NCBI GenBank assembly: GCA_021775855.1
Contig: JAJFGZ010000059.1
Span: forward strand, 1 to 64,000
DNA from: Hyphomicrobiales bacterium
GTDB lineage: Bacteria; Pseudomonadota; Alphaproteobacteria; Rhizobiales; NORP267
Length of the DNA: 64,000 nt
Direction: 5' to 3'
Shown here: positions 57,856 to 64,000 of the stretch, piece after piece
Layout: each line of letters opens with the position of its first letter
Numbering within the stretch: position 1 is the first letter of the stretch
The notes under the pieces: model-generated
Database searches by the model: none
The model's input: only the letters and a program-made list of their open reading frames with translations
Told to the model about the DNA's origin: nothing
Program-made: the position numbers and the translations under genes

Positions 57856-57925
57856 GCAACAGGTCTCCTGCCTCCCAGTTAGGGAGCCTGGAGAAATATG
57901 CAAGTTGTGGGGGTGGCTGTAAACG

Positions 57926-57955
57926 AAAAGAGCCCGGAGCGCGAAGCCCCGGGCC
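57926..57955 (-). terminator. Rho-independent terminator of small-peptide cassette 1
   Basis: Minus strand GCCCGGGGCTTCGCGCTCCGGGC followed by TCTTTTCGTTT. Confidence 0.8.
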
Positions 57956-57972
57956 GTCAGTTTACTGAACCA

Positions 57973-58149
57973 TTAAAGATTGTTTGTCAGTTGGGCGATT
58001 GGCAGCCGGCCATCAATCGATCCACCTGTCAGGGAGTTGACGAGCAGGTCGTTGGTGCCGGGAGACACCCGCCCCAATTCAGTGCTGGCAAAGGCTGCCG
58101 GCACAGAGAGTGCCAGCAGCGTTACCGTTGTGAGAAGGAGGTTTCTCAT
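57973..58149 (-). CDS. Small exported peptide B1 (58 aa)
   Basis: MRNLLLTTVTLLALSVPAAFASTELGRVSPGTNDLLVNSLTGGSIDGRLPIAQLTNNL. Sec signal and gap-free paralogue of B2. Confidence 0.8.
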   Translation of the reverse strand: MRNLLLTTVTLLALSVPAAFASTELGRVSPGTNDLLVNSLTGGSIDGRLPIAQLTNNL

Positions 58150-58191
58150 TTTTATCACCCGATTATTAGAGGGTTTTGTGGTTCGACAGAC

Positions 58192-58368
58192 CTAGAAGTT
58201 GTGGCCGTCGTTGGTCAGGAATGCATCACCAGCGGCAGGAACCGTTGACGTCATCTGATCAGTGATACCAAGGTCTTCGTTGACCTGATATCCGGTTTCG
58301 GCCTGTGCCGTGACGATGCCAGTTCCAAGTGCTGCGATAGCGGCGACTGCCATAAGGGTCTTTTTCAT
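58192..58368 (-). CDS. Small exported peptide A1 (58 aa); absent from the ORF track
   Basis: MKKTLMAVAAIAALGTGIVTAQAETGYQVNEDLGITDQMTSTVPAAGDAFLTNDGHNF. SD AAGGAGAA upstream; paralogue of A2. Confidence 0.82.
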   Translation of the reverse strand: MKKTLMAVAAIAALGTGIVTAQAETGYQVNEDLGITDQMTSTVPAAGDAFLTNDGHNF

Positions 58369-58384
58369 TTTAAATTCTCCTTAT

Positions 58385-58448
58385 GCCTCTGTTTGGCGAG
58401 GCGTTTTAAAAATTCGCGTCCGGTTGGTTCGCGTCTGGGTTAGAGATA
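58385..58448 (-). promoter_or_regulatory. Conserved leader of cassette 1 (hairpin plus 33-nt block)
   Basis: Hairpin arms GCCTC 58385-58389 / GAGGC 58398-58402. GCGTCCGGTTGGTTCGCGTCTGGGTTAGAGATA at 58416-58448 matches cassette 2 at 32/33. Confidence 0.7.
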
Positions 58449-58604
58449 GGGAAACGGAAATCAGAAAAAAGTACCTGTACTGATCATGTGAAACGACGTG
58501 AAAAATGCGTGATTTGGCGCGATGAATTGCGAGTTTCAGAGCACAAAAAAAGTGATCAATTGACGGTTTGTCGTGGGTTTCCGCCGACCCGCTGGTAACG
58601 CAGG

Positions 58605-58621
58605 ATCACTTTATTCGTGAT
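58605..58621. promoter_or_regulatory. Palindrome ATCAC-N7-GTGAT upstream of cassette 1
   Basis: ATCACTTTATTCGTGAT; the same architecture recurs at 59501-59517. Confidence 0.5.
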
Positions 58622-58810
58622 CACACCGTGTAGGCGATTTGGAAGGCGACCAGCGCAGCCGGAAAACGGCAGGATTTCTGATATCAGAAATGCGTGAGAT
58701 CGGTTTTCAAGATCCATGCTCGCGAATTTGTTCCAGAAAATTCGCGGCATTTGATGTCGACCCGAGATCCCAGCAGGGTCCGACAAGATGTACAAATGTT
58801 TTGGGAGCCT

Positions 58811-58848
58811 AAATAAGGAAAGGGCCCGGGATATAAATCCCGGACCCT
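58811..58848 (-). terminator. Rho-independent terminator of small-peptide cassette 2
   Basis: Minus strand GGGTCCGGGATTTATATCCCGGGCCC followed by TTTCCTTATTT. Confidence 0.8.
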
Positions 58849-58863
58849 AGGTACGACGCTCTT

Positions 58864-59040
58864 CTAGAGAGTGTGCGTCAACCGGAGAATTAGCGGACAA
58901 CCTGCGATCGGGGCGCCAGTCTGGGAGTTGACTAGGACGCGGTTAGTGATCGGGGTTGCCTGCCCTGTTTCGGTTCCGGCGAATGCTGCTGGCGCGGAGA
59001 GCGCCAGCAGGGTTACCAGAGTGAGGACTAGACTTTTCAT
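58864..59040 (-). CDS. Small exported peptide B2 (58 aa); absent from the ORF track
   Basis: MKSLVLTLVTLLALSAPAAFAGTETGQATPITNRVLVNSQTGAPIAGCPLILRLTHTL. SD GGAGGACATATT; aligns gap-free with B1. Confidence 0.8.
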   Translation of the reverse strand: MKSLVLTLVTLLALSAPAAFAGTETGQATPITNRVLVNSQTGAPIAGCPLILRLTHTL

Positions 59041-59080
59041 AATATGTCCTCCGCTGTTTGGGTTGTTCCTGGTGAACGAC

Positions 59081-59260
59081 CTAGTAGTTGTGGCCGTCGT
59101 TGGTCAGGAGGTTGTCGGGGTTGCCAGCGGAAGCAGTGGTTTCCAGCTGGGTCTTGAATGCAACGCTTTCGTTGGCGTTGTAACCGGTCTCGGCTTGTGC
59201 CGCGATGATGCCGGTGCCAAGAGCTGCAATAGCGGCGATTGCTGTGAGGGTCTTTTTCAT
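59081..59260 (-). CDS. Small exported peptide A2 (59 aa)
   Basis: MKKTLTAIAAIAALGTGIIAAQAETGYNANESVAFKTQLETTASAGNPDNLLTNDGHNY. SD AAAAGGAGAG upstream; paralogue of A1. Confidence 0.82.
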   Translation of the reverse strand: MKKTLTAIAAIAALGTGIIAAQAETGYNANESVAFKTQLETTASAGNPDNLLTNDGHNY

Positions 59261-59278
59261 TTTCTTCTCTCCTTTTGC

Positions 59279-59343
59279 GCCTCGGAAGGGTGAGGCGATC
59301 TCCAAATTTCGCGTCCGGTTGGTCCGCGTCTGGGTTAGAGATA
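59279..59343 (-). promoter_or_regulatory. Conserved leader of cassette 2 (hairpin plus 33-nt block)
   Basis: Hairpin arms GCCTC 59279-59283 / GAGGC 59292-59296. Conserved block 59311-59343. Confidence 0.7.
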
Positions 59344-59500
59344 GTCGGGAGAAACAAGGAAAAAAGAGGCTATCCTGTGCATGTGAGACAGTGTGAAAAC
59401 GACGTGATCGGGCGCGATGAAAAGCGAGTTTCAGGGCCCTGAAAAAGTGATCATTGGACGGATTGAAGAGCTATTCCGCCGGTTTTCCACTCACTGGGGA

Positions 59501-59517
59501 ATCACAATTTGCGTGAT
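59501..59517. promoter_or_regulatory. Palindrome ATCAC-N7-GTGAT upstream of cassette 2
   Basis: ATCACAATTTGCGTGAT, same spacer length and nearly the same distance to gene A as in cassette 1. Confidence 0.5.
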
Positions 59518-59545: not shown

Positions 59546-60313
59546 TCAGGAAAGCGCGGAAAAGTCCGGGTTTCTTTTTTCAATAAACGCCGAGAATGCT
59601 TCGCGCGCCTCTGGTGACGTGAGCTGCTGGCCAAATATTCTGGCCTCTTCGGCTATAATAGCGTCCATCCTGGCTTGTTCGCCCTTCAACATGCGTTTAG
59701 CCATACGCACGGCTTTGGGCGGCTTTGCGGTGAATTTGTCCGCAACCGTTTTGGCTTCCTCGTGGATTTTGCCGGATTTGACGGTTTTGCTGGCGATACC
59801 CAGTTCGACAGCGCGGGCGCCGGAAAATTCCTCTGCCAGCAAGGTCAGCTCGGCTGCCCGCGTATAGCCCAGAAGACGCGGCAGGAGGCGCGTCGAACCG
59901 GCTTCCGGTAACAGGGCGAGATTGATGAACGGGAATTGCAGGCGCGCATCCTCGGTGACCAGGACATAATCGCAATGCAGCAGCATAGTCGTGCCGACCC
60001 CTACGGAGACCCCTTCGATTGCTGCGACGATGGGAACTGTCGCGCGGGCAATCGCGGAAATAAACTGGAGCGCAGGGGCTGATTCATCGATGGGCGGTTT
60101 TGATAGGAAGTCGTTGACATCGTTGCCCGAGGTATAATTCCCGCCGGCACCGTGAAACAGGACCACGCGCACATCCAGGTCCTTTTCGGCGGCCGCCAGC
60201 GCCTCCGTCATGGCAGAGTACATTTTCAGGGTCAGGGCGTTTTTCTTATCCGGACGGTTGAACCGGATATCCAGAATATGCCCGTCGCGGGTGATGATCA
60301 CATCGTCTGACAT
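59546..60313 (-). CDS. Enoyl-CoA hydratase/isomerase family protein
   Basis: LFHGAGGNYTSGNDVNDFL, AAIEGVSVGVGTTMLLHCDYVLVTEDARLQFPFINLALLPEAGSTRLLPRLLG. Confidence 0.92.
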   Translation of the reverse strand: MSDDVIITRDGHILDIRFNRPDKKNALTLKMYSAMTEALAAAEKDLDVRVVLFHGAGGNYTSGNDVNDFLSKPPIDESAPALQFISAIARATVPIVAAIEGVSVGVGTTMLLHCDYVLVTEDARLQFPFINLALLPEAGSTRLLPRLLGYTRAAELTLLAEEFSGARAVELGIASKTVKSGKIHEEAKTVADKFTAKPPKAVRMAKRMLKGEQARMDAIIAEEARIFGQQLTSPEAREAFSAFIEKRNPDFSALS

Positions 60314-63171: not shown

Positions 63172-63275
63172 CAGGGCCCACTGGTAGAGCCTATTGAGGC
63201 TGCCGCGCCGGTTTTTGGCCATGATTTGGTCACAATTCGACTCCCACTATTTTACACGTGTTTAGAGGGAGGATT

Positions 63276-64000
63276 ATGATGCCTTACAATCTCAAAATTT
63301 CGCGAAAATCTCAGCGGGCGATCCGTCGGTTTTTGACCGGGTCGGCGATCGCTGCTCTAGCGGTGTCACCAATCACTTTGATGAACTCGCCAGGTTCGGT
63401 CGCGCATGGTCAAACGGTTTTCCAGCGCTCAATTGATAGTATCGATACGGTATCTCGTATTTCTCTGACTAAACTGCTGCATGTAGGTGAAAGGAGCGAA
63501 AAATCACATATCACGTATCATTCCGATGATGGCGGGGATGGTGAAGATCCGAAAGCAAGGGACGGCGCGGCAACAGATTCGGAAGCTGCTCCGGATGCCG
63601 GCGTTGATAAGAGCACCGATCCAAAAGATGAGACAGACAAATCAGCGGATGCAGACGGAAACGCAGACTCGGACGCTGAACCAAAGGATGGCGATGGTGA
63701 TGACAAGGGATCAGCATCTGACGTTGAACCGGGTGCAGACGACAGCAAGGGAGCGACTGCTGAAGCTGTGCCAAAAGCTGATGACGAAAAGGACACAACC
63801 GCTGAGGCCGCACCACATCCGGAAAATGGCAAGGGCACGACCACCGATGCCGCGCCAAAGGACGATGACGACAGGGGCGCCGAGAGGGATGCTGCACCAA
63901 AGGCTGGCGATGACGGCAAGGGTGTAGATGCCGACGATGCACCAGCGGCTGAGCATGAGGATAAATCCCCGGCAGATGATGACGCGCCGAAGGCAGATGA
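63276..64000 (+). CDS. Secreted acidic repeat protein, 3' end outside window; absent from the ORF track
   Basis: MMPYNLKISRKSQRAIRRFLTGSAIAALAVSPITLM..., then acidic repeats such as EAAPHPENGKGTTTDAAPKDDDDRGAERDAAPKAGDDGKG, with no stop to the window end. Confidence 0.7.
   Translation, partial: MMPYNLKISRKSQRAIRRFLTGSAIAALAVSPITLMNSPGSVAHGQTVFQRSIDSIDTVSRISLTKLLHVGERSEKSHITYHSDDGGDGEDPKARDGAATDSEAAPDAGVDKSTDPKDETDKSADADGNADSDAEPKDGDGDDKGSASDVEPGADDSKGATAEAVPKADDEKDTTAEAAPHPENGKGTTTDAAPKDDDDRGAERDAAPKAGDDGKGVDADDAPAAEHEDKSPADDDAPKAD

Follow-up and report, generated by a model that had tools for sequence, protein, structure and literature searches.

The entericidins EcnA and EcnB are two very short exported envelope peptides encoded by adjacent genes, and both are lipoproteins with a lipobox cysteine. 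Bufferins are short Sec-exported RiPP precursors with a Sec-type signal peptide, whose cysteines are modified by an adjacent MNIO enzyme (PMC12452194). Class IIb bacteriocins also consist of two small peptides from one operon, both needed for antimicrobial activity, with a double-glycine leader and a dedicated ABC transporter and immunity gene. Finally, taxonomically restricted (orphan) exported small proteins are genus-limited, short, provided with a signal peptide and devoid of any known domain.

The cassette described here, which encodes two small peptides named A and B, shares features with all these systems but differs from each of them. The predicted cleavage sites (AQA↓E in A and AFA↓G/S in B) lack the cysteine of the entericidins, and no entericidin (PF08085-type) family was found among the Pfam matches of A and B up to E = 1. 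Unlike bufferins, A is devoid of cysteine and B has a single one that is not conserved, and no MNIO (DUF692) gene was seen adjoining the cassette, where genes beyond the immediate neighbours were judged from ORF translations only. Unlike class IIb bacteriocins, A is acidic and B near neutral, both have a predicted Sec-type leader and no double-glycine leader, and the ORF translations revealed no dedicated ABC transporter, nor any other transporter or immunity gene, beside either unit. Unlike typical orphans, A and B make up a two-gene operon that is itself conserved, has a conserved promoter region of its own and has undergone two independent duplications. Judged from their sequences, A and B are new families without known relatives, although of an expected kind, namely short exported lineage-specific proteins.

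The cassette is located in the 64,000-nucleotide stretch of DNA that was analysed (the window), which belongs to a genome of 3.14 Mb in 88 contigs (G000). The window sequence contains two head-to-tail minus-strand units, each of them with A followed by B:

about 59546-58821, minus strand, unit 1: promoter region, A1, B1 and intrinsic-type terminator
59084-59260, minus strand, A1: 59 aa, signal sequence at residues 1-23 (AQA↓E), mature part of 36 aa
58867-59040, minus strand, B1: 58 aa, signal sequence at residues 1-21 (AFA↓G), mature part of 37 aa
58821-58848, minus strand, unit 1 terminator: 12 pairs, loop of 4, T-rich tail
about 58680-57931, minus strand, unit 2: promoter region, A2, B2 and intrinsic-type terminator
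58195-58368, minus strand, A2: 58 aa, signal sequence at residues 1-23 (AQA↓E), mature part of 35 aa
57976-58149, minus strand, B2: 58 aa, signal sequence at residues 1-21 (AFA↓S), mature part of 37 aa
57931-57955, minus strand, unit 2 terminator: 10 pairs, loop of 5, T-rich tail

Coordinates of the four genes exclude the stop codon, which is formed by the next three bases. A and B are separated by 40 and 42 nt in the two units, and the mechanical ORF list contains A1 and B2 only as slightly longer ORFs with alternative starts. The tandem A-B, A-B cassette on the minus strand, as proposed in the original prediction, was borne out, and the duplication also spans the upstream region and the terminator, since the similarity of the two units starts about 290 bp 5' of A and continues through the terminator that follows B. 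The immediate neighbours are an enoyl-CoA hydratase gene (59546-60313) on one side and the DUF463/DUF697 genes ycjX and ycjF on the other, with the start of ycjX at 57864. Further along, positions 63258-64000 belong to a gene that runs past the window (L013:7259-8236) and encodes an exported, very acidic, low-complexity protein with DDEKD/AEAAPK-type repeats; its counterparts in two related genomes, G001 and G002, are near metA and differ in repeat content.

The conservation of the reading frames indicates, with good confidence, that the four ORFs are real genes. B1 and B2 align without gaps, as had been claimed, with 59% identity, and A1 and A2 share 62% identity with one single-residue gap; a search with A1 recovered its paralogue and the orthologues at E values of 1e-13 to 1e-17. 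Frames of A and B are open across units and genomes, the only gaps being whole codons (one per family), and substitutions are enriched at third codon positions in most comparisons of units and genomes. A Shine-Dalgarno-like AAGGAG or GGAGGA precedes each start. The ORFs antisense to the genes are a by-product: none of the three reverse frames over A is open in all copies and one is open over B, which is expected in GC-rich coding DNA. Codon usage gave no sign of high expression in a genome whose codon bias is weak: A is slightly displaced towards the usage of ribosomal proteins (p = 0.057) and B is not (p = 0.72).

The dN/dS comparison proposed in the original prediction revealed purifying selection on A and B, in full-length sequences as well as in the mature parts, somewhat relaxed after duplication. 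Values lie overall on a scale of 0.04-0.4, and those of full-length A and B, of 0.2-0.4 between units and genomes, indicate a similarity beyond chance; as only three genomes carry the cassette, these estimates rest on few substitutions. With the Nei-Gojobori method, full-length dN/dS between units was 0.36 (A1/A2) and 0.28 (B1/B2), and between G001 and G002 it was 0.11-0.14 for A and 0.32 for B. In the mature parts, it was 0.39 (A1/A2) and 0.33 (B1/B2) between units, and 0.09 (A) and 0.17 (B) between the G001 and G002 orthologues. The mature parts had been described as showing the pattern expected of functional diversification. They have diverged between units, but this term overstates the evidence of selection; a relaxation of purifying selection after duplication suffices. 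Similarly, the signal peptides, which had been considered the conserved part, are not uniformly the best-conserved one: between G001 and G002 the signal peptide of B has a dN/dS of 1.1 (over few sites) and evolves faster than the mature part (0.17).

By inspection, the N-termini of both peptides present a start led by lysine/arginine or asparagine, a hydrophobic stretch and an AxA motif, which by eye predicts signal sequences of the Sec/SPI type. Mature A (35-36 aa) has a net charge of -3 to -6 and its two ends are conserved, with ETG(Y/F) at the start and N(D/N)GHN(F/Y) at the end, while the middle varies; all five copies end in NDGHNF or NDGHNY/NNGHNF. In mature B (37 aa, net charge -1 to +1), the central L(V/I)(N/T)S-TG and the final L are kept, and a single cysteine is present in B1 and in the B peptides of G001 and G002 and absent from B2 and from B3, a solitary copy described below. 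The absence of a named family, already pointed out in the original prediction, was confirmed, as neither A nor B is accounted for by a Pfam, NCBIfam, PHROG, PADLOC, PDB or Rfam family. Scans of Pfam, NCBIfam, PHROGs and PADLOC gave only sub-threshold matches to the signal sequence, and Rfam returned nothing for the cassette. A PDB profile match was discarded, given that it covers only residues 1-26 of a hypothetical protein, that is, the signal sequence. AlphaFold2 produced no confident fold for the two peptide alignments (pLDDT 52 and 55), although these alignments have five rows and such low confidence says little about disorder. No description of a peptide pair of this kind was found in the literature.

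Among the genomes sampled, homologues of A and B appear confined to one genus. They are present in its three genomes in the order A-B and directly upstream of ycjX, with A-B in G001 and A-A-B in G002, and they were absent from the three other genomes of the family. In samples that are not exhaustive, a full-length relative of A was found in none of 150 genomes of the order and none of 387 of the class, and a full-length relative of B in none of 298 and 387, respectively. The two best order-level matches of A (in G011 and G097) were rejected as signal-sequence matches within larger proteins rich in glycine and tyrosine (173 and 156 aa). Furthermore, no relative was obtained by searching the genome contigs with A, the viral contigs with B, or plasmids. 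The expectation that A and B always occur together and in this order therefore stands for the three genomes of the genus, but not strictly, due to the A-A-B arrangement of G002 and the existence of a lone B gene:

37851-38024 of contig C74 of G000 (L011:1501-1674), B3: 58 aa, found by profile search

B3 is 38% identical to B1, was detected at E = 2.7e-10 with a B profile built before B3 was known, and has no A gene alongside, so B can exist apart from A. Its neighbours are a divergent TetR-family gene and, downstream, DUF1348 and PNPOx-type genes. The palindrome TGTACCGATCAGTACA is located inside a promoter-like stretch (TTGACA-N17-CATATA), in its spacer.

Empty sites point to the place where the cassette was gained or arose. 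About 95 bp separate the enoyl-CoA hydratase gene of G003 from the ycjX gene that follows it, and about 60 bp lie between sixA and the following ycjX in G005, in both cases without the cassette. This suggests that the interval between the enoyl-CoA hydratase gene and ycjX first came to contain the cassette in the stem of the genus. Later steps would be a tandem duplication in the lineage of G000 and a copy to a second locus in G002. In fact, the tree of the units joins units 1 and 2 against G001 and G002 with a support of 100/100, which argues for a duplication in this lineage; the branch of unit 2 is longer (0.35 vs 0.19). With B alone, the tree has poor resolution.

In G002, the contigs break inside the cassette copies, and the pieces, found at four contig ends (L015:1-800, L016:1-190, L082:1-330 and L083:1-330, on C23, C10, C28 and C6, respectively), are not joined. 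C28 and C6 end in the promoter, and C23 and C10 begin within the cassette, in such a way that the native site corresponds to C28 (enoyl-CoA hydratase and thioesterase) plus C23 (ycjX), and the second site to C6 plus C10. The dispersed copy is near-identical to the native cassette. A short stretch of the C6 copy recurs at the native site, where it constitutes the 3' end of the C28 thioesterase gene, and the similarity of the C10 copy to the native site ends just past the terminator. Both observations suggest that the second cassette is probably derived from the one before ycjX. Visual inspection of its borders gave no obvious inverted repeats or target duplication. Other genes also occupy the space between the enoyl-CoA hydratase gene and the cassette: an acyltransferase-like membrane protein gene in G001 only (L014:5573-6805) and the thioesterase gene in G002, neither of which is present there in G000. 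This intergenic site seems prone to gene gain.

The upstream regions of the two units, aligned with each other and with the relatives, contain the following elements:

59501-59517, unit 1 inverted repeat, ATCAC-N7-GTGAT
59382-59408, minus strand, unit 1 triple TCAC element, ATCAC-N-TTTTCAC-N-TCTCACA, steps of 11 and 10 bp
59339-59344, minus strand, unit 1 candidate -10 element, CTATCT, followed by the conserved leader start CAGACGCGGACC
58604-58622, unit 2 inverted repeat, GATCAC-N7-GTGATC
58487-58513, minus strand, unit 2 triple TCAC element, exact pattern match, steps of 11 and 10 bp
58444-58449, minus strand, unit 2 candidate -10 element, CTATCT

Five copies were compared. The inverted repeat TCAC-N7-GTGA is kept in all of them and is less perfect in the relatives, where its counterpart is TTCACGAGGATTGTGAT or similar. 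The triple TCAC element, whose 11/10 bp spacing places its three parts one helical turn from each other, is conserved in G001 and G002 as well, and looks like a putative site for a dedicated regulator: the exact pattern occurs in the 3.14 Mb genome only in the two units, and allowing three mismatches added two further sites, compared with none for the reversed-pattern control. About 40 bp beyond the TCAC elements, CTATCT is invariant in the five aligned copies and is a candidate -10 element; no sigma-70 consensus pair was found at this position. The leader beginning CAGACGCG is also kept in the five copies, and short hairpins are predicted in it which differ between lineages and match no RNA family (Rfam). 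As a whole, 58440-58622 and 59335-59517 contain many TCAC half-sites, first as the inverted repeat with a 7-bp gap and then as three in-phase direct repeats. An equivalent of the hairpin 3' of B is found in G001 and G002.

What these comparisons show is a conserved, genus-restricted and duplicated operon with a predicted promoter region and terminator of its own. An activator or repressor acting on the TCAC elements would turn on the synthesis of a bicistronic mRNA, about 0.5 kb long, and A and B would be exported by Sec and cut by signal peptidase I. The released peptides would be short and largely unstructured (35-36 aa and acidic, and 37 aa and near neutral) and could go to the periplasm or outside, with the envelope of the producing cell as their target; most likely they would be regulatory or protective peptides induced under certain conditions, and not enzymes or toxins. 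That A and B act jointly is something that we infer solely from the order of the genes, and B3 occurs without A. The best fit would be a pair of peptides that act as a signal or tune the envelope. To the reading as a whole, a regulated operon of two small exported peptides that act on the own envelope, with an origin in the stem of the genus and later duplications, we give an even chance of being correct.

Among the alternatives, it is rather unlikely that A and B give rise to a secreted intercellular signal of two parts, in which fragments of the A C-terminus (NDGHNF/Y) and of B are read by a receptor. The lack of a catalytic or structural domain, the divergence of the duplicated copies and the conservation of both ends of mature A (ETGY/F and NDGHNF/Y) around a variable middle agree with this possibility, but an end conserved to a similar degree would be equally consistent with any peptide that binds a partner, and no receptor, exporter or peptidase gene is attached to the cassette, its neighbours being the enoyl-CoA hydratase and ycjX/ycjF genes.

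It is improbable that A serves a periplasmic PDZ protease as decoy or ligand, with B as its partner, and that the pair tunes envelope stress. The aromatic residue at the C-terminus of A, kept in five copies, resembles the tails of misfolded outer-membrane proteins, and the cassette always adjoins ycjX-ycjF, whose E. coli relatives are induced by membrane and heat stress. However, a terminator parts B from ycjX and the second copy of G002 lies away from this gene, so the linkage may be only an inherited position. We consider similarly doubtful the more elaborate idea that A and B are the halves of a new genus-specific secreted two-peptide factor for signalling or envelope control, where the copies would be separate channels and B3 a TetR-controlled stand-alone partner.

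An antimicrobial role, which had been mentioned as a hypothesis, was disfavoured by the net charge, and a two-peptide bacteriocin or contact toxin with a Sec leader is very unlikely. One operon with two small exported peptides, duplicated and diverging, would be consistent with it, but charges of -3 to -6 (A) and -1 to +1 (B) and the missing transporter and immunity genes argue against it, as do the absence of a double-glycine leader, the strong purifying selection on the orthologues and the presence of the cassette in every genome of the genus instead of a strain-variable distribution. Finally, the least probable reading by far, that the small ORFs are spurious and their conservation reflects a regulatory RNA, finds some agreement in a very well conserved upstream leader that is predicted to fold into small hairpins, but is already contradicted at the sequence level by the excess of third-position changes and the dN/dS values under 1 for both frames, the single whole-codon indel per family, the Shine-Dalgarno-like motif ahead of each start and the lack of an Rfam match.

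In this genus, a conserved operon of two families that are orphans in the libraries appears to have arisen at a known chromosomal site. The cassette provides a concrete set of very short genes that are easily missed by annotation and, if they are expressed and exported, it would be a clear example of gene birth or gain within one lineage, in which occupied sites can be set directly against empty ones.
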